From contig JAJCZA010000020.1 of assembly GCA_029262635.1 (NCBI GenBank), forward strand, positions 1 through 64,000: a stretch of 64,000 bases of DNA, written 5' to 3'. Under the pieces are notes generated by a model, which saw nothing but the letters and a program-made list of their open reading frames with translations, ran no database searches and was not told where the DNA came from. The position numbers were made by a program, and so were the translations under genes. How positions within the stretch are numbered: the first letter of the stretch is position 1; each line of letters begins with the position of its first letter. Origin of the DNA: Vampirovibrionales bacterium (GTDB taxonomy: Bacteria; Cyanobacteriota; Vampirovibrionia; Vampirovibrionales; Vampirovibrionaceae). Shown here one piece after another: positions 9,482-28,760 of this stretch.

Positions 9482-10485
9482 TTTAGGGTCGTGATCGCTG
9501 AGTCTGTTATTTGATTCGTTTTTTTGTTTAAAAGTAAATCACTGGCCAAATTTAAGGCCGCTTGAAGACTCTCGGGATTTGCAACACCCTGATCCACAAT
9601 ATCCGATGCCATACCATGACTGACGGACGTTCGAATAAAAGGCAGGCCAATGGTGACATTAACCGCCTTAAAGCCTGCCAACAGCTTCATCGGAATCAGT
9701 CCCTGATCATGGTAAGAGGCGACATATAAATCAAATTCAGGAGATGTAATATTAAAGCCTCGGAACAAAGCATCTGCCGCACAAGGCGGTTCAATAGGCA
9801 CTCCATACTCTCGGCTTACGGCTTCAAGAGCGGGCATAATCGTATCTCGTTCTTCGCTCCCATTGATTTCGCCAGCATGGGGATTGACGCCCAGAACACA
9901 CACATGCGGTGAGGCGATGGCCTCGTATTGTCGAATAAACCGGATCGCGCTTCCCAACGTTTTTGCAATTTTCTGTTCGGTTAGAAGGTTTGAAACATCT
10001 TTCAACGCCACATGACGGGTTAATAAAAGCATCCGGAAACCTTCAAACACGAATAACATATCCGATTGCCAGCCTTCACCGGGACGAGCCTTATCAGGCA
10101 TGGCAAAATGCAGGTTAGAAAGGTGTTGAAGAATCTCCGTATGCCCTTCAAAAGGAATACCAACACTTTTTAGATTTTCTTTTGAAATAGGACCCGTTAC
10201 CAGAGCGTCTGCTTCATTATGAGCAATTAACTCAACCGCTTTTTCTAGAGCCAGGTAGGAGACTGCTCCGGGTCCCTTTCCTTCAATATGAAGGTATTCG
10301 ATGCGAGGGGAATGAGGAAGAACTACCCCTAACTGCCGGGCGACTTCATTGAGCTGAGGGATATCTCCAATAATTTTCATTTGAGACCCACTAGGCATCT
10401 GAACCGTGTTTACCAGAACTTTCGCCATAATCTCCGGGCCAATTCCTGTGGGATCGCCAATGGTCATACAAAATGTCTGTGTCAT
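9478..10485 (-). CDS. pdxA: 4-hydroxythreonine-4-phosphate dehydrogenase family protein (PdxA or PdxA2)
   Basis: NAD-dependent metal enzyme. Classical PdxA oxidises 4-phosphohydroxy-L-threonine for pyridoxal phosphate; the PdxA2 subgroup acts on 4-phospho-D-threonate or -erythronate. Seen are GDPTGIGPEI at the N-terminus, TGPISKENLKSVGIPFEGHT, PHAGEINGSEE, YVASYHDQGLIPMKLL and NVTIGLPFIRTSVSHGMASD, which supply metal and substrate histidines. I start at ATG 10485, where AAGGA lies about 7 nt upstream, rather than a TTG at 10533 without a ribosome site. It is directly downstream of a DUF1537-type sugar-acid kinase, the known partner of PdxA2, so the catabolic role is a serious alternative. Family call is firm, subgroup is not. 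Confidence 0.92.
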   Translation of the reverse strand: MTQTFCMTIGDPTGIGPEIMAKVLVNTVQMPSGSQMKIIGDIPQLNEVARQLGVVLPHSPRIEYLHIEGKGPGAVSYLALEKAVELIAHNEADALVTGPISKENLKSVGIPFEGHTEILQHLSNLHFAMPDKARPGEGWQSDMLFVFEGFRMLLLTRHVALKDVSNLLTEQKIAKTLGSAIRFIRQYEAIASPHVCVLGVNPHAGEINGSEERDTIMPALEAVSREYGVPIEPPCAADALFRGFNITSPEFDLYVASYHDQGLIPMKLLAGFKAVNVTIGLPFIRTSVSHGMASDIVDQGVANPESLQAALNLASDLLLNKKTNQITDSAITTLN

Positions 10486-10549
10486 TTTTTTGTCCTTGCC
10501 CGCTAAGAAGTCTATAAAAACCGTTCGACTCAAATTGTTTTAAGCGGCT

Positions 10550-11923
10550 TTATCCTGATAGTTTAGCGGATGAAATTTCATGTTGTTTAAGATACCTAAC
10601 AATATTAGCAAGAGCAAGATTCGACCCAAAATTACCGGACTTAGTCACTAACCATTGATGTCCAGAGGTGCTTTCGCTGGAAATATTCCTTAATAAGGGA
10701 ATGGAAGGCTCAATTTCCGCTGCGATTATTAAATGATTATATCCCAGCCGATGACAGGTATGAGTGGCTGTGTCGCCACCTGTTAGAATAATTTTGGCCG
10801 GTTTTTCTTGCAGAACCGTTTCTAAAATTTGGGATAATATAGTTTGGGCCCGAGAGGTTACTTCTTCCTCTGTTAACCCATTTTCCTCAGCCAGTTCTAA
10901 CGTTCTGGGTAGACTCTCTTCTTTAGCGGAAGTAGAAACCACAACCGTATTTGAGTCTCCCAACGCATCAACGATGTGTTCAATAACAGGCTCAAGGGGA
11001 GATAAGCCTAAAATATGCTCTGGGTCAATGTCCACCACTAAAAGCTCACTACCTTCACCATAGTAAAGGTAATTGTCCATGAGTTGCAAAATCTGTGTTC
11101 GAGTTAAAGCCGTATTCGTGCCGGACCCAATTAAGATAGGGGATGGCGAAAAAAGTTTTTTTTCAGTTTCAGGAAGGGGCTCCAAGCTAATGTTTGGCCA
11201 ATGTTTACTCAGGGCTTGTGCTAAGCCAGCGGAGCCACAAGGGAGGACTTTCGCGGTTTTTTGAACCTTCTCGATGACCAGCGCAATTTGCTCTAAATCC
11301 GTATTAGAGCAAGCGTCTACGACGACCAGCTTTTTTCCCTCAGCAATAAGCTCGGTTAATTCGGCTAATAAGGGGCCAGCTCCTCGAAGAACTGTTGCCA
11401 GTTCAATGTGTGCAACGATATCCGATTTAGAGGCCTCAGCCATGACCGTCGGGATATGAGATTGACATGCCGGAAAGCGAGGATCTTGGGATACTTCCGT
11501 CTGCTCGATGGGAATACCATGCACCAATTGATACCCGCCAACCGTCCGACGCCCTTCCTGAGGGTAAGCAGGGGCTACCACAACGCAATCCCAACCCAAC
11601 TCATCGACAGCAGCCAGGCACTCTTCGGTAAAGTGCCCTCGCAGGGTTGAATCCATTTTTTTATAAAAATGCTCCGCGCCGTAATGATCCTTTAGTAATT
11701 CAATAGCTTCTCTCACTTTAGCAATCGCATTTCGAGGCTCAATGTGACGAGATTCTGTGCTAATAGACCACACTTGGTTCTCTTCATCACTTGAGGCGGG
11801 GAGTTTATCCGGCTCTAAAAGAACCCGAGTTTGACACCCAGCATGAAAAAATTGCAATGCAGTATCACACGCACCAGTTAAATCATCGGCAATAATACCA
11901 ACGGTTAATCCGGGTAATTGCAT
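10550..11923 (-). CDS. Four-carbon acid sugar kinase family protein (DUF1537)
   Basis: ATP-dependent kinase family (OtnK/DtnK/DenK) that phosphorylates D-threonate, D-erythronate or 3-oxo-tetronate. The 457-aa protein shows the N-terminal substrate domain (GIIADDLTGACDTALQF, KKMDSTLRGHFTEE, PAYPQEGRRTVGGYQLV, VSQDPRFP) and the C-terminal nucleotide domain (KIILTGGDTATHTCHRLG, LVTKSGNFGSNLALANIV). It lies upstream of pdxA on the same strand, matching known kinase-PdxA2 pairs for threonate catabolism. No dedicated sugar-acid transporter or aldolase is seen in the window, so the substrate is inference. Confidence 0.87.
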   Translation of the reverse strand: MQLPGLTVGIIADDLTGACDTALQFFHAGCQTRVLLEPDKLPASSDEENQVWSISTESRHIEPRNAIAKVREAIELLKDHYGAEHFYKKMDSTLRGHFTEECLAAVDELGWDCVVVAPAYPQEGRRTVGGYQLVHGIPIEQTEVSQDPRFPACQSHIPTVMAEASKSDIVAHIELATVLRGAGPLLAELTELIAEGKKLVVVDACSNTDLEQIALVIEKVQKTAKVLPCGSAGLAQALSKHWPNISLEPLPETEKKLFSPSPILIGSGTNTALTRTQILQLMDNYLYYGEGSELLVVDIDPEHILGLSPLEPVIEHIVDALGDSNTVVVSTSAKEESLPRTLELAEENGLTEEEVTSRAQTILSQILETVLQEKPAKIILTGGDTATHTCHRLGYNHLIIAAEIEPSIPLLRNISSESTSGHQWLVTKSGNFGSNLALANIVRYLKQHEISSAKLSG

Positions 11924-11968
11924 AAAAAGTCCTCTTTAAAATCGAAACAAAAACAGAGCGATCGGGCT

Positions 11969-12325
11969 CTAAAAGGCTGTGGCTGGCTGCTGTTGACCAC
12001 CCATGGCACTATCTCGCTTGCTTCCGACAAAACTAACAGAGGTTGCTTTAATCATGGGGTATTCTTTCGGGTTTCCGGCCTGATCGGTCCAGCGGTTAAC
12101 CTCTAATGAGCCCTGCACACTGACGAGGGCTCCTTTTTTTACCCACTCTCCAACGAATTCAGCTTGCTTACCCCAAACTTCAATATTAAACCAATCGGTT
12201 ACCGGGTTCTGCTTTGAGAAGGTTCGGTTAACCGCAACCGAAAACTTAGCCTTGACACTACCCGATTCAAAGTATTTAATTTCAGGGTCCTGACCCAATC
12301 GTCCAACAATCACTACCGAATTCAT
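11969..12325 (-). CDS. ssb: Single-stranded DNA-binding protein
   Basis: Coats single-stranded DNA in replication, recombination and repair. The 118-aa product is an OB fold: MNSVVIVGRLGQDPEIKYF, then KFSVAVNR, WFNIEVWGKQAEFVGEWVKK, GALVSVQGSLEVNRW. It is short: only about 15 residues follow the OB fold and it ends QQQPATAF instead of the acidic DDxxPF tip that recruits partner proteins in most bacterial SSBs. It may be a compact variant or a second paralogue. No partner gene adjoins it. Confidence 0.93.
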   Translation of the reverse strand: MNSVVIVGRLGQDPEIKYFESGSVKAKFSVAVNRTFSKQNPVTDWFNIEVWGKQAEFVGEWVKKGALVSVQGSLEVNRWTDQAGNPKEYPMIKATSVSFVGSKRDSAMGGQQQPATAF

Positions 12326-12846
12326 CTATCCGTTCCTTATCAATAAAGATTAAAAAATAACAAAGTGGAGGTCATTATAACCCATTCCACCTCACATCAC
12401 CAAAAAGACAAGCCCCAATCGTAGATAATGTAACAAAGGGCTGGTTTACTTGGCGCTTTCTCTTATTTGAAGTTGATCGATACTATTAGGGTAATCTTGG
12501 GCCCGACCTCAATAAATGCTTTGACTCTTGATTCGTTATATTCCTCCCGGCCTCCTCCTTCTAACTCTATGGTTTTTTCCCAGTTACTGTAAAGGTAAAC
12601 GTATCTCCGGTCTCATTTGAAGAAAGTAACATCCCTGAGCCAAGATGTTTAGCATATCGAACGATGGCATGATTAAAAATCTCTAAATGGGAATATTCAT
12701 TAGATGTAAATCCTTATAAATAAGAGGTGGTAGTTGTAAGGGTTATGGAATGCTATAAAAATAGCAATTTAAATTCAACTTTAAATAACGATTTGTATCT
12801 AATTTAAACTAATCTCGACAAAAAAAGAAGTGGAAGCAATGGCTCA
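12326..12846. other. Intergenic region between ssb and the inositol-phosphatase gene
   Basis: 521 bp, AT-rich, with no intact gene. The only protein-like signal is a start-less minus-strand reading frame (12567-12713), listed separately. No clear terminator or repeat was found. Confidence 0.4.
12567..12713 (-). pseudogene. Possible gene remnant, 48 codons without start
   Basis: A minus-strand open frame ends in TAG and reads like the C-terminal part of a folded protein (for example IFNHAIVRYAKHLGSGML and GDTFTFTVTG). It has no ATG/GTG/TTG near its beginning; an out-of-frame ATG preceded by AAGGA lies nearby, which suggests a frameshifted small gene. Family unknown. It may also be chance. Confidence 0.25.
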
Positions 12847-13686
12847 TCAAGCCATGTTCACCACATGAGAATCTTTACACACGGCGACGAGTTGGTTATG
12901 AATGTCCGTCCCATTAGAGCCCAGAATATTAATGCGTCGTGTATCATAATCGAGAGAGTGACCTCTAAAATTAGAAATTTGTCCACCGGCTTCCTCTACA
13001 ATCAAAGAGCCTGCGACCACATCCCACGGAGATAGACGGAGTTCCCAAAATCCATCCAGGCGGCCTGAAGCAATATAAACCAAGTCCAATGCCGCGCTCC
13101 CTGCCCGTCGAACACCATGACATATTTTCATAAACGTTAAAAAATAATCCATGTTGTCTTCCGGCTTAACATGAACGTCGTAAGGAAACCCAGTGGCTAA
13201 CAGTGACTGATCTAGCGCAGTCACTTGACTGACTCGAATGGGTTTTCCGTTTAAAAAGGCGCCCTGTCCTTTGATGGCCGTGAACAGCTCGTCTTTCATC
13301 GTATCGTAAACCACACCCACCACCGGCTGACCTTTTTCCATAAATGCGATAGAAACGGAAAAGTGGGGAAATCCATGAGCAAAATTGGTAGTCCCATCCA
13401 GTGGATCGACCACCCAGGAGTATTTCATATCCATCACAGAGCCCTCTTCAAAGGTCTCTTCGGTAATGAGAACCGACTCCGGGAGGTGTTCCTCAGAAGA
13501 ACGGCGGGTTAAAATATCCCGAATCTGCCGATCGCATTCCAAATCCACAGTGGTGACCAAATCAATACCTGACGATTTGGTATTGATATCAAATTTTTTT
13601 TTGTAATTTTTCCGCTGACACTGGGCCGCCTCTTTGGCCGCCTCAATGGCAATGTCCAACCGTTTACTCCAATGCGATGGTTCCAC
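12847..13686 (-). CDS. Inositol-1-monophosphatase family protein (SuhB-like)
   Basis: Mg-dependent phosphatase of the IMPase/FIG superfamily, 279 aa. Metal-binding motifs are intact: ITEETFEEG (Glu ligand), DPLDGTTNFAHGFPHFSVSI (DxDGT signature) and LSPWDVVAGSLIVEEAGG (WDxxAG). Likely substrates are myo-inositol-1-phosphate or related sugar phosphates; some members (SuhB) act with Nus factors, others as NADP phosphatases, and sequence alone does not decide. ATG start at 13686, preceded by GGAGAAGG. It stands alone and is divergent from dusB. Confidence 0.92.
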   Translation of the reverse strand: MEPSHWSKRLDIAIEAAKEAAQCQRKNYKKKFDINTKSSGIDLVTTVDLECDRQIRDILTRRSSEEHLPESVLITEETFEEGSVMDMKYSWVVDPLDGTTNFAHGFPHFSVSIAFMEKGQPVVGVVYDTMKDELFTAIKGQGAFLNGKPIRVSQVTALDQSLLATGFPYDVHVKPEDNMDYFLTFMKICHGVRRAGSAALDLVYIASGRLDGFWELRLSPWDVVAGSLIVEEAGGQISNFRGHSLDYDTRRINILGSNGTDIHNQLVAVCKDSHVVNMA

Positions 13687-20387: not shown

Positions 20388-21414
20388 CCCAAAAAAAATT
20401 CTTGTTATCCGCTATCGCTTTATCGGCGATACCCTATTGATGGTCCCATTTTTGCGTAATCTACGCCGAGCTTACCCGGAAGCTGTTATTGATGTACTTG
20501 TGGCTCCTAATTCCGGAGAAATCCTGAAGCATTGCCCCTATATTAACCAGCTCATTTACTTCAATACCACCCGAAAACACCGCTATGAGAACAGACAAGG
20601 TGAACCGCCCCGTTCGTTTTTTTCTTATATCAATGAACTAAAAGCCCGACAATATGACATGGCTTTTGTTTTGAAGCGTTCCTTTTCGTCGGCTCTGTTG
20701 ACTTTTTTAGCAGGTATCCCCAAACGAATTGGCTACAAGACGGAAGCTCGCCAATTCCTGCTCACCGACTCCCTACCCTATAATAAAACCGCTCCAGAAG
20801 CTGAGTGTTTTCTTGACGCCCTTAGATCCATCGGAGTGCCTGTTGATGACAGTCACCTGGAAAGCTGGTGGACGGATACAGAAGAATCCCATATTGACCA
20901 GTTGACCCAAGGCGTTCAGCCAGCCCTCACCCCTCACCCAAAAGAGAGGGATGCTTGCCACGTACTTTTGCACATGACCTCCTCAAACCCATCCAAAGAA
21001 TGGCCCGAACATGTATTTTTCCATGTGGCTCAATGGCTCATTGAAGAACACAATGCTATTCTACACAGCGTCGGAACCGACAGCGATGCTTCCCGTTATC
21101 AAAACCTGATCCACACTCTGAACAGTCCTGACATAAAACGATTTTATAACTGGTGTGGTAAAACAGATCTGTTGGAAAGTCTCTCTCTGATCAAACGAAT
21201 GAATTTAGTTATTGGCGTGGATTCTGGCACCCTGCACATGGCTTCTGCCACTGGTGTTCCTGTCATTGCCTTATTTAACCCTGAAAATATTAGTAAATGG
21301 GCCCCTCCTCATCCCCAATCTATTGTTATTAGTGAACGTGATCCCAACCAAATTTTAGCGAAAGTACAGGACGCATGTCAGACCCTACTCCAAGTTCAAA
21401 CCCTCAGCCATTAA
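20368..21414 (+). CDS. Glycosyltransferase family 9 (heptosyltransferase-like)
   Basis: ADP-heptose:LPS heptosyltransferase-like enzyme, 348 aa, expected to extend the LPS core at the inner membrane face. N-terminal Rossmann part KILVIRYRFIGDTLLMVPFL, acceptor-side LAGIPKRIGYKTE, and the donor-binding C-terminal part with SSNPSKEWPEH and NLVIGVDSGTLHMASATGVP are all typical of GT9. It overlaps lpxK upstream by 20 bp and mutS2 downstream by 40 bp, so all three should be co-translated. The exact sugar is not decided by sequence. Confidence 0.87.
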   Translation: MSRFANSPKKILVIRYRFIGDTLLMVPFLRNLRRAYPEAVIDVLVAPNSGEILKHCPYINQLIYFNTTRKHRYENRQGEPPRSFFSYINELKARQYDMAFVLKRSFSSALLTFLAGIPKRIGYKTEARQFLLTDSLPYNKTAPEAECFLDALRSIGVPVDDSHLESWWTDTEESHIDQLTQGVQPALTPHPKERDACHVLLHMTSSNPSKEWPEHVFFHVAQWLIEEHNAILHSVGTDSDASRYQNLIHTLNSPDIKRFYNWCGKTDLLESLSLIKRMNLVIGVDSGTLHMASATGVPVIALFNPENISKWAPPHPQSIVISERDPNQILAKVQDACQTLLQVQTLSH

Positions 21415-23885
21415 AAGCGCCTCAAAGTACCCTTGAAGCGCTGGAATGGTTCACCATTCATGAAAAACTGCTAGACTACTGCCAAACTCCTTTTGGCCGG
21501 GCGCTTTGGCAAACTGAACCGTTTTTAACGAATGCTCATACCGTCGAAGCCTGCCTTAATGAGGTGGATGCCCTGAAAATTCTGATTCTTCGCTACAATG
21601 AGCCGTTACTTGATAAGCAGCCCATTCAAGATATTAGCGATGTCCTAAGCCGAGTCAAAAAAGGCGGAGAAGTGAATGCGGCAGATCTGGGGAAATTGTT
21701 GAACACTTTGAAGCAGGGTGTCCGTTTTTTAAACCACTTTAAACAAGCTCTCCAGAAAGAGCCAGCACAACAAGAGGCTCTCCTCCCTCTTCTCGGTAAT
21801 ATTATATTCCCTGATGAGAGTATCCGAGAGCTAGAAAAAACCGTCAGCCCTTCAGGTGATATTCTCGATGAGGCCAGTCCCAACCTGTTTCAACTCCGAG
21901 AAAAATTTAGAAGCCAGCGCCGAACTATTTACGAAAAACTCCAGAAAGTTCTCCACACACCAGAACTCGCCAAGGCGCTTCAGGAACCCATCATCACCGA
22001 GCGGGATGGTCGTTATGTCCTTCCTGTGCAGGTCGCGTTTAAAAGCAAGATTCCCGGTGTGGTTCATGCAGGTTCATCCAGTGGCGCCACCGTTTTTGTT
22101 GAACCCAAAAACGTGATTGAACTTAATAATACCTTGCAGGAAACCCAAACCCTGATCCAAAAAGAGGTTCGTCAGATTCTGAAAGAAGCATCCCTGTTTC
22201 TGGAATGCCACAGTGGGGATATGGGCGTGTTTATTGAACATCTGGCTCAAGTGGACAAGCGCTTCGCCGCCGCTCGCCTTAGCCGTCAATTAAACGCCTG
22301 TGCCCCTGAACTCGTTCTCAGCGAGCAAGTTCTCGATTTAAAACAAGCCCGCCACCCCCTCCTTGTTTTTACCGAAAGCGACCCAAAACGAATCGTCGCC
22401 AATGACATTCAGCTAGGCCTTGATGGACATCGCACCCTCATCATTACCGGCCCTAACACCGGCGGAAAAACGGTTCTGCTAAAAACCATTGGACTTTTCG
22501 CTCTGATGCTCCGAGCCGGACTCCATCTGCCCGTCAACGAAAACTCCCAGATGTCTCTGTTTGAACCAATATTGGCCGACATTGGCGATCAGCAAAGTAT
22601 CGCCCAGAGCCTCTCTACATTTTCCGCCCATCTATCTCACCTCACCCATTTTGTAGCCGACAACACAGATTTATCTCATGGACTGGTGTTGATTGATGAG
22701 ATTTGCGCCGGAACCGACCCTGCCGAGGGCGGTGCGCTGGCTCGATCCGTCATTAAAGAACTGTACGATAAAGGCAGTTTGAGTATTATTACGACTCACC
22801 TCGGCGAACTCAAGTTAGAAGCCCACGAACAGACGGGTTACCTTAACGCCAGCGTAGAATTCGATCCAGAAAACCTAAAACCCACCTATCGATTAATTAT
22901 TGGGGTGCCTGGCACCAGCAACGCCATTACCATTGCCCGTCGACTGGGACTAAAGGCAACGGTTACAGATCGAGCTAAAAGCTATCTGAGCCAACCTCTG
23001 AAAGAATCTACCGAATTACTAGAAGACCTTGAGCTAAAAAATCGACAACTCTCGGAACAACTCCATCAGGCCGAGTCCTATAAAAAATCCACGCAAGACG
23101 CCTATGAAAAAGTAGATCAGCAACGCCACCAGATTGAATCCTCCAAGCGCCAGACCTTACAGCAATTTAAAGCGGGCCTGAAAGAACGGGTGCATCAACT
23201 GGAAGCGGAAATCCGTCACCTCAAAAAAGAACTCCTCAAAGCTCGAAACGCCACTCAAGAAAAGCTGGATGAGGCATCAGTCGATAGAATGAATACCCAC
23301 TTAAAACAGCTGAACAAGGAGGCAGAACATCTGTTTGACACCTCTTACGCCGATATTGAAGCCGACAGCGAAAAATTAACGCTCAGCGAGCTGGCCATTG
23401 GCGATCAAGTGCAAAGCAAAAAATGGAACGTGAAAGGCGAGATCATCTCGCTGGAAAACGAACGGGAAGTCATTATCCAATCAGGCCTGATCAAAGTCAC
23501 CGTACCACTTGTGGATCTGGAATTTTCCCGAGGTCGGGGCGGGCGACGAGAAACCCACCAGGAGCGTAAGACTAAACAGAAGAAACAGACTATCGTTCCT
23601 CAGGCATCGCCTCGAACCGATCGCTCATCAGAAACAATCGCCATTGGGCTGGAATGCAATCTATTGGGCTTACGAGTTGAGGAAGCACTAGAAAAAATGG
23701 CGCAATTCTTGGATAAAGCGTCTCTAGCCAATCACCAGGTAGTTAGCGTTATTCATGGTCATGGGACCGGTGCTCTTAAAAAAGCGGTTCGGAATTACCT
23801 GAAAGACTCGCCCTATGCCCACAAATTTTATCCCGGCTCCCCCCAAACTGGCGGTGATGGTCAAACCATCATTGAACTAAATTGA
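21375..23885 (+). CDS. mutS2: Endonuclease MutS2
   Basis: MutS-family ATPase with a C-terminal Smr nuclease domain; roles described for the family are suppression of recombination and, in Bacillus, rescue of collided ribosomes. The 836-aa protein has the N-terminal clamp region, the ATPase with Walker A TGPNTGGKTVLLKTIGLF, ADIGDQQSIAQSLSTFSAHL, Walker B LVLIDEICAGTDP, a coiled coil of about 150 residues, a KOW-like segment, and the Smr domain with LLGLRVEEAL and VIHGHGTGALKKAV. It begins inside the GT9 gene. Length is normal. Confidence 0.95.
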   Translation: MSDPTPSSNPQPLKAPQSTLEALEWFTIHEKLLDYCQTPFGRALWQTEPFLTNAHTVEACLNEVDALKILILRYNEPLLDKQPIQDISDVLSRVKKGGEVNAADLGKLLNTLKQGVRFLNHFKQALQKEPAQQEALLPLLGNIIFPDESIRELEKTVSPSGDILDEASPNLFQLREKFRSQRRTIYEKLQKVLHTPELAKALQEPIITERDGRYVLPVQVAFKSKIPGVVHAGSSSGATVFVEPKNVIELNNTLQETQTLIQKEVRQILKEASLFLECHSGDMGVFIEHLAQVDKRFAAARLSRQLNACAPELVLSEQVLDLKQARHPLLVFTESDPKRIVANDIQLGLDGHRTLIITGPNTGGKTVLLKTIGLFALMLRAGLHLPVNENSQMSLFEPILADIGDQQSIAQSLSTFSAHLSHLTHFVADNTDLSHGLVLIDEICAGTDPAEGGALARSVIKELYDKGSLSIITTHLGELKLEAHEQTGYLNASVEFDPENLKPTYRLIIGVPGTSNAITIARRLGLKATVTDRAKSYLSQPLKESTELLEDLELKNRQLSEQLHQAESYKKSTQDAYEKVDQQRHQIESSKRQTLQQFKAGLKERVHQLEAEIRHLKKELLKARNATQEKLDEASVDRMNTHLKQLNKEAEHLFDTSYADIEADSEKLTLSELAIGDQVQSKKWNVKGEIISLENEREVIIQSGLIKVTVPLVDLEFSRGRGGRRETHQERKTKQKKQTIVPQASPRTDRSSETIAIGLECNLLGLRVEEALEKMAQFLDKASLANHQVVSVIHGHGTGALKKAVRNYLKDSPYAHKFYPGSPQTGGDGQTIIELN

Positions 23886-23893
23886 AGCTCAGC

Positions 23894-24646
23894 CTACTCA
23901 TGAGTTTTAATAGACTCTGATGCATTAATTCCACAGATATTCTCGTAGGGGCAGTAGCGATCAGGGCATGTTTCAGGAAGAGAATAAGCGGTTTCGAAAA
24001 TGATTTGCCCAACCGTTTGGCGCAAAACCTGACGAGTTTCCTCATGCTTTAGGGATGTATAAAAAACTGGAATCGAACGAATTTGGTCTTTTACTTCCAC
24101 ATAAATAAACTGGAACTGTTCCGGTGTCATCCTTTCATTTAGCCCCAAATCTTGCCGAGCTTCGTAAACAGCGTAAAGGTAAACCCGGGTTTGCCAGTCG
24201 TTTTCCGGATTTTTGGGTACGGCAGTGCCCGTTTTCCAGTCAATTACCAGCACGCGATCATCGGATTGAGCAATACGATCGACCCGACCAACTAACCAGT
24301 TATTGCTTGATCCATCCAGAGTTAACGGTACTTGAAACCCCCATTCGCTTCCTAAAATAGGTAGCTTAACCATGGGATCAGCCATGAGTAACCGCCAGGC
24401 AGATTGAACCTCCGAGGTCGCATTGCCGATAATCGCCTCACAGTTTAATCCCCGCGCATGGTAGTCCAGTAATTTGTGTACATCTTGCCCTAGTTGAAAA
24501 TTTTGATGATCCGTGGGCCAATGCAGTTGATTGACATAATCCAGAAAATATTTTTTTCGGCACCGACTCCATGTCTTCAATTGATTCACGGAGAACAAGC
24601 GAGGGGATGAAACCGCCAAATTTTGGGGGGCTGGCACTTTACCCAA
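23894..24646 (-). CDS. RecB-family PD-(D/E)XK nuclease with Fe-S cysteines
   Basis: A 250-aa stand-alone nuclease like the C-terminal domain of RecB/AddB. Active-site parts: GQDVHKLLD (His), VGRVDRIAQSDDRVLVIDWK (Asp and D-x-K) and QTRVYLYAVYEA (Q-x-x-x-Y). Four cysteines, Cys29 plus Cys227, Cys232 and Cys238 (CPDRYCPYENIC), match the split Fe-S staple of AddB, Cas4 and Dna2. Its start overlaps the end of the upstream helicase by 8 bp, so the two are translated together and probably form a DNA end-processing complex. Cas4 is an alternative name by homology but there is no CRISPR locus here. Confidence 0.85.
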   Translation of the reverse strand: MGKVPAPQNLAVSSPRLFSVNQLKTWSRCRKKYFLDYVNQLHWPTDHQNFQLGQDVHKLLDYHARGLNCEAIIGNATSEVQSAWRLLMADPMVKLPILGSEWGFQVPLTLDGSSNNWLVGRVDRIAQSDDRVLVIDWKTGTAVPKNPENDWQTRVYLYAVYEARQDLGLNERMTPEQFQFIYVEVKDQIRSIPVFYTSLKHEETRQVLRQTVGQIIFETAYSLPETCPDRYCPYENICGINASESIKTHE

Positions 24647-27600
24647 GAGTCACCCCCGTTTCTTCTCTTTGATTTAATTCGATTATTTCCGCCAGAATTG
24701 TGTAGCCAATGGAAGGCTCCGCCTGTTCCTGTCTACTATATCGGTTATGATATTGGGTATGGGCTGTTAAATACAGCCCTCGCTTGGCTCGAGTTAGGCC
24801 CACATAAATTAGTCGAGCTTTTTCTTCGGCCTTGGTTCGAATACTTTTTTCCATATATGAATCGGGCAAAGGGCCATCTGCCAAAACAGAATCCAGCTCT
24901 CGAACCAATTTATCGTCAGCATTAAAGTCGATTTTTATCTTACGCATAAATGGCATGAACACCACATCAAACTCTTGCCCCTTAGATTTATGAAGGGTCA
25001 TAACCTGAACAAAGTCTTTCCCTGTATCATTTAGCAATTCTGTAAACGACTTCTTATTTTTAGGCGATCGTTGCAACAACTGAAATTGTTGAATCACCAG
25101 TTCTAAAGGTGACAAGTGATCCACGTCGTAAAACTGCCTCAAAATATCCCGGGCCTGAATGGCACACAAATAACCATTGCTCCGATCTTCAACGGATGCG
25201 AATAGATGATCTGTCATTCTAATCAACAATTGGGCAATATTGCTTCCTAAGCCATCTCGACTAAAATCAATCACGTCGTAATAAAGCTGCTGTAGAAATT
25301 CATCGTCCAGCGTATTGGGTGATTGATACAGAATTGCTCGTTCAGTAAGAATTGCCTTTCGTTCCGGGTTATTCGGAAAAAGGCGGGCCTCTACCATGGC
25401 CTCGAATAACCGAACCTGATTAACCGGCTCGCTTGGTGTAGCAATGAGTTGAAGGTAAGCAAGAAGAACGGAAAAAACCGGATTCATGCCAAGTTTTTCA
25501 CTAAGACTAATGGCGGGAATGCCCTTGCTTTGTAATATAGCTGCCATTCTATTAACTTGCTCGTTGTAAGCCGGCAGAACAGCAATTGATAATTCCGGGT
25601 TCGTTTTTTTAATCGCTCGAATTCGTTCAGCAATCCAATGTTCTTCATCCCGATCAATATCAAATAAACGGGCTTCTGGTGGAAAGAGAATCATCGGATT
25701 TTTTCCAAAATCTTTCTCTGAGAGACAAACGATATCGACGGGCTGAAACGCTTGTGCCAATTGAGAAATTTTACCCACTCGACGCACCCATTGATTGGCC
25801 AGATGAATAATTTCTGGGGCGCATCGGCCACTGCGGTCCATGGTCACCACCTGATTCGCTGTCTGAATAAAATTACGAAAAACGGACGTATCCGCCGAAC
25901 TGAATGTGGTAGTAATCGACTGGTTTGTATCGCCGGTTCGGATTAAATTAGGGCTACCACCGCTAATCAGGGTAATAAACCGTTGAAGCAGAAGGGAAGA
26001 ATCTTGAGCTTCATCCTCGATAATCACCCGAAATTTACGTTGGTAATACGACCGAATGTCGGGATACCTCTCTAACAAAGCCACGGCTTTTAGAATTAAA
26101 TCTGTAAAATCCAAATACCCTTTTTCGGTGAGCCTGTTTTGATACAACTGGAAAGACGGAATAAATTGTCGTAAGCCAAAACTTTGAGGATGAGCTTGAA
26201 GAAATTGCTGAAGCCGCTTAATCGTTAGCCCCTGTGTTTTGGCATAAGAAATTCCACGAGTTAATGTTCTCAAGCTCTGCCCTCGAGGTTGATTCTCTCC
26301 CATACTAGTGTGTTCCGAGATAGCCTTGAGAATTTCATTCTGCTCGTAATCGTCCAGAATTTGAATATCTTCTGGTAAAAAACCAAGATACAAGGCATGG
26401 TCGTTCTCTGTTAAAATCCGAAATGCTAAGCTATGAATGGTCGAAATTATCGGTAGTTTTACTGTCACCTGATCTAGCTTGCCCTTTATTCGACTCAACA
26501 TAGTTTTAGCAGCGCTATCCATGTATGTGAGTACTAAAATTTCATCGGGTTCAAGACCTTGCTCAATTAACTCCAGAATTAGTTCCACGTTGACAAACGT
26601 TTTTCCTGCGCCGGGAACCGCCGTAATCGCCATGGTGCCGGAACGGTAATCAAGTACGGATTGTTGATCCACTCGAAGGCTTGCTCGCTGAAGGCTCTCT
26701 CGTTTTAAAGGGTCTGTTATCTGAGAAATCAGACGGGATTTTAAAGCTCCCTGCTGATTAAACCCCTGATCATCCAGTTCACTGGCATATGTCCGCACCT
26801 GTTCTAAAGCCAACAACATCAATGTTCGGGTTAGGTGTGCTGCCCGCACCCGGACAAAGGCCTCTCGAGCTTCTTCTGTAAAATCAGCCGTAGAACCATC
26901 CCACACGGCTGAATGCACCCAGGCATTATACAGCGGAGCGTTATCCGTCCGAGCCCACTCTCGGCTTCCCACATCTAACCAAAAATAAATTTTTCGGCGA
27001 GCCTCAAAATCGATCAGTTTTTGCGGTGTTCCCAAAATCACCGCCGTTGGATCAATGTCCATAGGCGTATCCGGCGTATCGGCCACAATGCCGGTCTTTG
27101 CCTGACTCAGCCAAAGCCGATTAAATTGTTCCCAGTCCTCGTTTTCTGACTCATTATCATGGTTGCTTGCATGCCAGCGTGCAAAAAGGGTTCGCTGTTT
27201 TTCGTAACTTTCTATCAACTTTTTAATATCAGAAAAAGTATCCTTGTCTGTCGCAAACAGGGTGGTTAAATGAGAAAACCCATGTAACATCTGTGCCTCA
27301 AAGGACAAATCCTGGGCAGTCGTCAGCCAGTTGATTAGTAACTCATATCGCCGTCGAGTTTCTGTATGTGGCGAAAAATCCTCGTCCGTTGTCAGACTAT
27401 CCCAATCTAAAGTTAATGACGATTCATTCACTTGCTGAAAGGCCACCATTTTTTCTACCAATCGATCCACCACGCCGGGATCAATTAAATGTAGCTTTAA
27501 TAAATGACTAAATATGGTTTTATACTCGATAGGCGATAAATAATAGGACCATCGTCGGCTATTAGCCCACTGTAATAAATACAAAAAGCCCCGACAAACG

Positions 27601-28760
27601 GGATTATCAAAGGGGCGTTGAGTTCCTGAAAGGAGCTGAAGGTGAATTGCTCGTTTGCTCAGTCGATTTTTCAATACATAAATCGCCAGTGGATCATTCA
27701 CCGGCGTAACCACCGAAAAGTCTCCCGGTTGATACCCTTGCTCCAGTAAACGGAGCATATCATGAACCACCTGATCCAACATCTCTACCCGAGTTAAAGC
27801 ACTATCTCGGTTCACCAACACATGATTCAGCGGTAAAAAGTCAGTGTCCGTTGTCGTACGCCAGTTGTTCAATAAAATAGCTGCGTCCTTTGCCACAGAG
27901 TCTTCTCGATTAAGAACAATTGTTTCTCCTGGTTTTAGAGCCTTTAGAGCTTCCCAGTCATAAGGGTAAGCATTGAGATACCCTCGTCGAGATCCGCCAT
28001 CGATATCCGTCGAAAGGATAAGCGTCTCTAACGTGGGTGCCAGAAACTTGATAAACGCCTGTTGCGCCGGAATGGTTTCGTCCACATCATCAACAATTAA
28101 GTGTTTTACATGGGTTTTAATCCAATGCTGAAATAATTCGCTGGATTCAAGTATTCCATGGAATACGTCCAACTGTTTGTTAGCGTCTAGCACTCGAAGA
28201 GTATAGCTAAGATGATCAAACTGTCGCTCAATTTCCGCCGTTTCAGGTACGCAAATTTCCGCCAGCAAATGAGAACGGCGAGTCATTTCCGGTCGAGATA
28301 ACCGGTTTTCCGATCGCAGGCGAATCCGTCGAATCAGTTGCTTGATCAGCGCCGCTTCCGTCCCTGGAAAATCATCAAAAGCAGACGGATTCTTAAGTTT
28401 CTGTTCTGTCAACAGGCGCTTTAACAAGAGTTCCGAGTCTTCCATCCCTGATAACATGGGACGAATCGCCGAGGCACCCGGAAAAGAGCTAACCTCTGTT
28501 GGAGGGTTTAACTGGGCTTCTACTTCCGGCCAAAAGTTAAATAGAGATGTTCGAACGTAGCCCGAATACGTATAAATAGACAGCTCCCCCATGGGGCAAC
28601 TCAATTGTGTCAACAGCCGTTGGGTAAACTCTTTTTTACGCGCATGTTGACAGCACAACACCAGAATAGATTGGCTGGGGTGTTTTTGAATCAGACGCTT
28701 TACTTCAGCGATCAGTCGATCTGTTTTTCCAGAGCCTAAAGGCCCTTCAACATAAAGCAT
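24639..28760 (-). CDS. Tandem SF1 (UvrD/AddA-like) helicase, 1373 aa
   Basis: Two superfamily 1 helicase units in one chain. N-terminal unit (about 1-650): Walker A GPLGSGKTDR at residues 6-15, a Walker B-like LIVDDVDE near 223, and a 2A-like part (FSVVTPVNDP); it resembles AddB. C-terminal unit (about 690-1373): Walker A AVPGAGKTFVN near 715, DEAQD near 914, RTGDTNQSI, VMTLHKSKGQEFDVVF near 1258 and RLIYVGLTRAKRGL, all UvrD/AddA motifs. No nuclease domain is fused; it is supplied by the next gene. I infer an AddAB/RecBCD-type double-strand-end processing machine with fused motors. ATG start at 28760 has a weak ribosome site. Confidence 0.88.
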   Translation of the reverse strand: MLYVEGPLGSGKTDRLIAEVKRLIQKHPSQSILVLCCQHARKKEFTQRLLTQLSCPMGELSIYTYSGYVRTSLFNFWPEVEAQLNPPTEVSSFPGASAIRPMLSGMEDSELLLKRLLTEQKLKNPSAFDDFPGTEAALIKQLIRRIRLRSENRLSRPEMTRRSHLLAEICVPETAEIERQFDHLSYTLRVLDANKQLDVFHGILESSELFQHWIKTHVKHLIVDDVDETIPAQQAFIKFLAPTLETLILSTDIDGGSRRGYLNAYPYDWEALKALKPGETIVLNREDSVAKDAAILLNNWRTTTDTDFLPLNHVLVNRDSALTRVEMLDQVVHDMLRLLEQGYQPGDFSVVTPVNDPLAIYVLKNRLSKRAIHLQLLSGTQRPFDNPVCRGFLYLLQWANSRRWSYYLSPIEYKTIFSHLLKLHLIDPGVVDRLVEKMVAFQQVNESSLTLDWDSLTTDEDFSPHTETRRRYELLINWLTTAQDLSFEAQMLHGFSHLTTLFATDKDTFSDIKKLIESYEKQRTLFARWHASNHDNESENEDWEQFNRLWLSQAKTGIVADTPDTPMDIDPTAVILGTPQKLIDFEARRKIYFWLDVGSREWARTDNAPLYNAWVHSAVWDGSTADFTEEAREAFVRVRAAHLTRTLMLLALEQVRTYASELDDQGFNQQGALKSRLISQITDPLKRESLQRASLRVDQQSVLDYRSGTMAITAVPGAGKTFVNVELILELIEQGLEPDEILVLTYMDSAAKTMLSRIKGKLDQVTVKLPIISTIHSLAFRILTENDHALYLGFLPEDIQILDDYEQNEILKAISEHTSMGENQPRGQSLRTLTRGISYAKTQGLTIKRLQQFLQAHPQSFGLRQFIPSFQLYQNRLTEKGYLDFTDLILKAVALLERYPDIRSYYQRKFRVIIEDEAQDSSLLLQRFITLISGGSPNLIRTGDTNQSITTTFSSADTSVFRNFIQTANQVVTMDRSGRCAPEIIHLANQWVRRVGKISQLAQAFQPVDIVCLSEKDFGKNPMILFPPEARLFDIDRDEEHWIAERIRAIKKTNPELSIAVLPAYNEQVNRMAAILQSKGIPAISLSEKLGMNPVFSVLLAYLQLIATPSEPVNQVRLFEAMVEARLFPNNPERKAILTERAILYQSPNTLDDEFLQQLYYDVIDFSRDGLGSNIAQLLIRMTDHLFASVEDRSNGYLCAIQARDILRQFYDVDHLSPLELVIQQFQLLQRSPKNKKSFTELLNDTGKDFVQVMTLHKSKGQEFDVVFMPFMRKIKIDFNADDKLVRELDSVLADGPLPDSYMEKSIRTKAEEKARLIYVGLTRAKRGLYLTAHTQYHNRYSRQEQAEPSIGYTILAEIIELNQREETGVTLG

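Follow-up and report, generated by a model that had tools for sequence, protein, structure and literature searches.

A fused UvrD-like helicase and a separate Fe-S-type nuclease in Vampirovibrionales: a candidate AddAB/AdnAB-like DNA-end-processing system of Cyanobacteriota

The fused helicase and its separate nuclease

The window analysed here is a stretch of 64,000 nucleotides from a Vampirovibrionales bacterium (positions 1 to 64,000 of contig JAJCZA010000020.1, assembly GCA_029262635.1), a member of the class Vampirovibrionia of the Cyanobacteriota. Its reverse strand carries two open reading frames (ORFs): one encodes a protein of 1373 amino acids (aa) in which two helicase halves are fused, the other a PD-(D/E)XK nuclease of 250 aa (Table 1). 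A sequence-only reading had described this pair as an AddAB/RecBCD variant with two motors in one chain and a separate Fe-S nuclease, the two frames overlapping by 8 bp. The fusion is supported by the reading frame itself, by Pfam and by its recurrence in many genomes, and the separate nuclease by its PDDEXK_1 domain and four invariant cysteines. The overlap holds provided that the TTG start of the nuclease is used, since a GTG codon located three codons downstream (24637) would leave no overlap with the helicase frame.

Table 1. Coordinates of the genes, domains and motifs discussed in the text (window positions, except for the C17 pair)
Feature	Positions	Strand	Basis or remark
Fused helicase ORF	24639-28760	-	1373 aa; ORF listing
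Nuclease ORF	23894-24646	-	250 aa; PDDEXK_1 nuclease with four-Cys Fe-S-type signature
Frame overlap, fused helicase/nuclease	24639-24646	-	8 bp, provided TTG start used
N-half, degenerate UvrD-like (SF1A) helicase domain	26691-28760	-	residues 1-690; Pfam, AF2, fold matches, profile
N-half Walker A GPLGSGKT	28722-28745	-	intact in window protein; alignment
N-half motif II region LIVDDVDE	28077-28100	-	alignment
N-half motif III region STDIDGGSRRGY	27978-28013	-	without the UvrD motif III Gln; alignment
N-half motif V region TPQKLIDFE	27003-27029	-	non-canonical; alignment
C-half, UvrD-like SF1A motor	24639-26690	-	residues 691-1373; clear Pfam and motif matches inside 695-1355
C-half Walker A AVPGAGKT	26598-26621	-	alignment
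C-half motif II IIEDEAQD	26001-26024	-	alignment
C-half motif III GDTNQSITTTF	25902-25934	-	family-typical GDxNQ(S/A)I; alignment
C-half motif V TLHKSKGQEFD	24966-24998	-	alignment
C-half motif VI VGLTRAKRG	24777-24803	-	alignment
Nuclease catalytic IDWKTG (D136, K138)	24227-24244	-	D136, K138 invariant 17/17
Nuclease C-terminal Cys 227, 232, 238	23933-23968	-	invariant 17/17
Nuclease C29, fourth Cys of signature	24560-24562	-	invariant 17/17
C17 AddAB/AdnAB-like pair	L005:5897-9556 and 9492-12890	-	Pfam domains

The C-terminal half of the fused protein (C-half) is a UvrD-like helicase of superfamily 1A (SF1A), with the Pfam domains UvrD-helicase at residues 698-967 (7.3e-57) and UvrD_C at residues 1246-1335 (8.4e-20), and motor motifs I, II, III, V and VI are kept in all 22 aligned fused proteins. 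The N-terminal half (N-half) taken by itself also matches UvrD-helicase (PF00580; 1e-8, 35.6 bits for a cut-off of 23). Its AlphaFold2 (AF2) model adopts the structure of a whole SF1A helicase, with a predicted local distance difference test score (pLDDT) of 85.4 and a predicted template modelling score (pTM) of 0.83. The fold is closest to UvrD/PcrA (Z about 28) and can be aligned over its whole length with AdnB (Z 23.8; 594 residues; root-mean-square deviation, rmsd, 4.7) and with AddB (Z about 21.8; 579-592 residues; rmsd about 5). The expectation that this half folds as a helicase domain was thus borne out by the model. We also considered that the N-half could be an unrelated P-loop protein, which is excluded by the Pfam match, the fold and an hhalign profile comparison with the C-half (98.6%).

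The alignments cast doubt on the claim of two motors. While the P-loop of the N-half is present in the near relatives of the window protein, it is lost in locus L018 and in the forms from family f6 (e.g. GDLSTNKT), and the regions of motifs III, V and VI are non-canonical in all 22 aligned fused proteins. Where N-halves are encoded by separate genes (n=13), only some of them retain the P-loop, and motif II differs between them. Because of these non-canonical motifs and of the P-loop losses in many relatives, the N-half is read as degenerate rather than as a second canonical motor. Judged on motifs and predicted structure, the fused protein is most aptly seen as a single motor joined to a pseudo-helicase, these being predicted activities.

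The nuclease matches PDDEXK_1 (PF12705) at 2e-25, and Pfam detects no PDDEXK domain in the 1373-aa protein, so that this domain occurs only in the separate ORF. In 17/17 aligned sequences, Cys 29, 227, 232 and 238 are invariant, as are H57, D123, D136, K138, Q152 and Y156. The AF2 model (pLDDT 91) finds its best fold matches in the nuclease domain of AdnA (Z 17.8), in ACE1 (17.0) and in the nuclease domain of AddB (15.1). The protein is therefore a PD-(D/E)XK nuclease with an AddB-type four-cysteine staple for a predicted Fe-S cluster.

Other end-processing genes and distribution in the phylum

The source genome (2.99 Mb, 31 contigs, 95.9% complete) contains four matches to the 1373-aa protein: itself, a PcrA-like helicase on contig C2 and two neighbouring ORFs on contig C17. 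The latter (1219 and 1132 aa) each combine a UvrD-type helicase with a PDDEXK_1 domain. Among solved chains, AddA is the top helicase-nuclease for the first ORF, behind plain UvrD/PcrA helicases, and AdnA is a weak match for the second; against the curated AddA and AddB models both fall below cut-off. By its domain content this pair is AddAB/AdnAB-like, and its presence contradicts the idea that AddAB is absent elsewhere in the genome. It also excludes that the fused helicase and its nuclease are a stand-in for a missing AddAB in this organism. Of the AddAB/RecBCD variant first proposed, there remain AddAB-like parts in another arrangement. RecC was not found: PF04257 gave no match in the source genome, while the E. 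coli positive control was matched. The AddA-like protein of C17 recurs across the family and order of the window, and the AddB-like one matches 14 of the 292 phylum genomes, none of them outside the class. Two genomes in which no partner nuclease was detected (G197 and G249) also carry an AddB-like ORF.

Among 58 relatives, the large protein was matched in 34 at a threshold of 1e-20, a count that includes matches to PcrA only, for example in family f8. The nuclease gene adjoins the fused gene in 20 of 25 loci; two of the other five are cut by contig ends, and in three, all from family f3, no nuclease was seen despite sufficient room. The fusion is neither a local oddity nor a misassembly, as many other genomes of the class have it too, and conservation of the ORFs in so many genomes rules out chance. 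Class members with a fused helicase or an N-half match in which no partner nuclease was detected include L243, L244, L246, G235, G273, G275 and G279.

An N-half profile (A1) matches 241/292 phylum genomes, 128 in the class of the window and 113 outside it, and a nuclease profile matches 235/292. Among the N-half matches listed, all in-class frames exceed 1100 aa and are fused, and all frames from outside the class measure 334 to 780 aa and are separate genes. The weakest A1 matches reach about 1e-9 and were read in part, with 14 separate-gene N-half loci read directly. The A1 profile also misses some true cases, such as G068, in which the N-half was seen with a second profile (A5). The comparison of A1 with A5 is inflated because two sequences are common to both alignments, and the separate-gene N-halves find independent support in the A1 profile search.

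Outside the class, four genomes (loci L066, L071, L076 and L078) carry three overlapping separate genes in the order N-half, motor, nuclease, and in a fifth (L248) the N-half is followed by the motor up to the contig end. In 24 photosynthetic-type genomes, every one chosen for having the N-half, a motor orthologue was found in 24/24 (21 scored at full length and 3 assessed from fragments), and 23/24 have the nuclease, the parts being scattered and unlinked. The 21 full-length motor orthologues score 230 to 342 bits, whereas the second copies, which are PcrA-like, reach 174 to 191. When 32 genomes were searched for PDDEXK_1, ORFs longer than 800 aa turned up in five of these 24, so that by this test 19/24 have no long helicase-nuclease chain. 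Outside the genome set, the best 80 nuclease matches listed are all cyanobacterial by title. Altogether, the fusion appears from sequence as the class-wide form of a phylum-wide set, and not as a local rearrangement of AddAB.

The main evidence that the parts of this trio work together is that genes which are not linked are present together and absent together. In the same-phylum rows, 111 genomes have both the N-half and the nuclease, while two and three have one only. RecC (PF04257) is found in 40/292 genomes, 35 of them from a single family of small genomes (f36) and five others. All 35 RecC-bearing f36 genomes are without an N-half or a nuclease match, and the 21 of them searched with the motor profile are all without a motor orthologue: their best scores, about 99 to 118 bits, correspond to PcrA, while true orthologues reach 400 to 686. 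Family f36 is probably the Prochlorococcus/marine Synechococcus group, an assignment inferred partly with passages of PMC5101192, according to which marine Prochlorococcus and Synechococcus have recBCD. Joint absence is also seen without RecC: all three parts are missing from G132, from G196 and from 5/5 tested genomes of family f8, and the other genomes of the family of G196 (f29) retain the three.

A further candidate partner emerged from 88 cyanobacterial nuclease loci (the best 80 matches to one query, as a result of which some orders are over-represented, plus 8 from the phylum genome set). In 38 of these loci the nuclease gene has a RecJ-type ORF close by on its own strand, mostly within 1 kb downstream, and for three of these ORFs the identity as DHH/DHHA1/RecJ_OB proteins was verified. 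RecJ is thus likely a partner in part of the cyanobacteria.

Comparison with known systems and competing explanations

AddAB, too, is described as pairing a motor with a pseudo-helicase, and in RecC the helicase domains are dead. As judged from motifs and the predicted fold, the trio shares with AddAB a single SF1A motor, a degenerate helicase-like partner that folds like AddB and an AddB-kind four-cysteine nuclease. It differs from AddAB in that the helicase halves are fused (or the parts form three chains) and in that there is one nuclease instead of two, a separate single-domain protein. Comparison with curated models, one of the checks suggested for this locus, gave AddA scores far below cut-off for the fused protein (90.8 bits for TIGR02785, cut-off 707.65; 72.2 bits for the AddA alpha model, cut-off 860.75), and the window proteins miss the AddA/AddB cut-offs altogether. 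A likeness to AdnAB shows in the alignments of the N-half with AdnB and of the nuclease with the AdnA nuclease domain, but each AdnAB chain bears a motor and a C-terminal nuclease, unlike the one motor, one pseudo-motor and one separate nuclease seen here. With RecBCD the trio shares a UvrD-like motor and a RecB-family nuclease; however, RecC is unmatched in the source genome, 35 of the 40 RecC-bearing phylum genomes are without N-half and nuclease, and the fused protein gives only trace RecD scores.

Two other assemblies deserve comparison. UvrD/Cas4-like fusions have been described together with an unfused predicted operon, the latter mostly in Clostridiales, and a role in repair is proposed (Hudaiberdiev 2017, passages of PMC5704561); as described there, these assemblies also link a UvrD-like helicase to a stand-alone pfam12705 nuclease, but those passages describe no pseudo-helicase partner. 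ACE1, a Cas4-family protein associated with Argonaute (PDB 9iac, 9iab), is the nearest stand-alone nuclease fold and is cyanobacterial too. It belongs nonetheless to another sequence family, with a weak and partial profile match to our nuclease, and we met no helicase partner for it in this analysis. Judging from sequence and models, the trio falls outside AddAB, AdnAB and RecBCD, yet it most likely works like AddAB/AdnAB.

We therefore favour, with a probability of roughly 0.6, the interpretation that the fused protein and the nuclease would form one AddAB/AdnAB-like DNA-end-processing helicase-nuclease that is differently built. The C-half would act as a 3′-5′ SF1A motor unwinding DNA from an end, the N-half pseudo-helicase would hold or read a strand like the helicase-like domain of AddB, and the separate Fe-S-type PD-(D/E)XK nuclease would cut the unwound strands. 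This could serve to resect ends for recombination or to destroy linear DNA of foreign origin. Complex formation, polarity, the roles of the parts and the biological function are what we infer here from the observed anatomy, gene order and co-occurrence and from the predicted folds. The ancestral form in Cyanobacteriota was probably made of three genes, N-half, motor and nuclease, which still form an operon in some lineages and lie scattered in photosynthetic cyanobacteria, while the first two are fused in the class of the window.

Several observations weigh against this interpretation. Since the source genome also encodes an AddAB/AdnAB-like pair, the fused system may have a different or redundant role there. 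Five genomes carry RecC, N-half and nuclease together. No nuclease was found near the fused gene in the three f3 loci with room for it (3/3), nor among the nuclease-profile matches in f6 genomes G197, G235, G249, G273, G275, G279 and G285, and part of the cysteine set is absent from some cyanobacterial nucleases. Moreover, the f36 pattern may reflect one evolutionary event, in which case Fisher p-values based on counts overstate the association, and we do not rely on them.

A transposon screen in S. elongatus bears on the question from both sides. According to passages of Taton 2023 (PMC10653904), losses of ago, cas4, uvrD, recJcy, rpoD2 and Synpcc7942_0992 aid RSF1010 transfer or maintenance, and each benefits transformation too; Synpcc7942_0992 is given as a PD-(D/E)XK protein and pcrA as a paralogue separate from uvrD. 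Argonaute and Cas4 homologues are also named as limiting transformation in a passage of PMC7125226. A non-PcrA UvrD, Cas4-like/PD-(D/E)XK nucleases and RecJcy are the set that the trio would predict, the screened genes being candidate orthologues of its parts. In G084, a possible relative of S. elongatus (2.7 Mb, 55% GC in the region read), the nuclease adjoins chlD and folK (named by sequence inspection), neighbours that do not recur in the other 87 loci, while Synpcc7942_0991 is pxcA (from a passage of PMC11360081); hence G084 is something other than S. elongatus, or else 0992 and the trio nuclease are different proteins.

The same screen could be read as the signature of a machine acting mainly against foreign DNA or at replication forks, perhaps with Argonaute and ACE1/Cas4-like proteins, rather than of the main break-resection enzyme. 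This reading agrees with the finding that uvrD, recJcy and PD-(D/E)XK genes hold back both transformation and the maintenance of RSF1010 (PMC10653904, with stalled forks discussed in those passages), with the matches of the PADLOC GajB and DRT-helicase models to the C-half and with the place of ACE1 among the nearest folds of the nuclease. The GajB matches may, however, merely reflect the common UvrD fold, no defence genes were identified beside the locus among the window ORFs judged by sequence inspection, and a set that is near-universal in the class and phylum and missing from the family in which RecBCD occurs suits housekeeping better; we regard this reading as somewhat unlikely. It is distinctly unlikely that the two proteins have separate jobs, the fused protein being a UvrD paralogue with an accessory domain and the adjacency a matter of operon convenience. 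The fused gene is indeed without a detected nuclease in family f3 and in several f6 genomes, and the parts are scattered in photosynthetic cyanobacteria, but the operon order is identical in distant lineages, the joint occurrence is near-perfect, and the parts are jointly absent from f36, f8, G132 and G196. That the locus encodes a true AddAB member, split and re-fused in this lineage, appears very improbable: the fold likeness to AddB and to the AddB and AdnA nucleases and the weak AddA scores of the C-half point that way, but those scores lie far from the cut-offs, an AddAB/AdnAB-like pair is also present in the genome, and the split form is phylum-wide.

A wider proposal, which we hold to be about as likely as not, is that Cyanobacteriota own an ancestral end-resection class, built from a lone motor, an inactive helicase and an unattached Fe-S nuclease and commonly accompanied by RecJ, and that RecBCD took its place in the Prochlorococcus/marine-Synechococcus-like family. 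Recombination occurs readily in model cyanobacteria, Synechocystis 6803 and Nostoc 7120 among them. Both are reported, in passages of PMC5101192, to be without E. coli-type recB and without recC, and the trio is a candidate for the enzyme preparing broken ends in such cyanobacteria; it would be their missing end processor. RecBCD and AddAB substitute for each other across bacteria (as stated in a passage of PMC1193525), and break-repair research in Synechocystis is called limited in part of PMC11063404. In the literature searched, we found no description of the trio as a system, and it is possibly an overlooked machine for trimming broken DNA. A conserved trio that is missing from the main RecC-bearing family points to three genes for study. 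It could also offer a natural experiment in dismantling AddAB, in which motor, pseudo-helicase and nuclease occur either on their own or joined together.

Neighbouring genes

In the window, the fused gene and its nuclease are neighboured by a mutS2-like gene and by flagellar-type ORFs (all named by sequence inspection), chromosomal neighbours that are not informative as a functional clue. The MutS2-like gene (21375-23885, forward strand) is convergent, with 8 bases separating its end from that of the nuclease gene. A second stand-alone PD-(D/E)XK family of about 285 aa, weaker-matching and cyanobacterial, was met at loci L133, L134 and L135 and is possibly ACE1-like. Finally, a PAP_fibrillin gene is also common near the nuclease, forming a 45-locus cluster (within loci L161-L232) of which one member was Pfam-tested.

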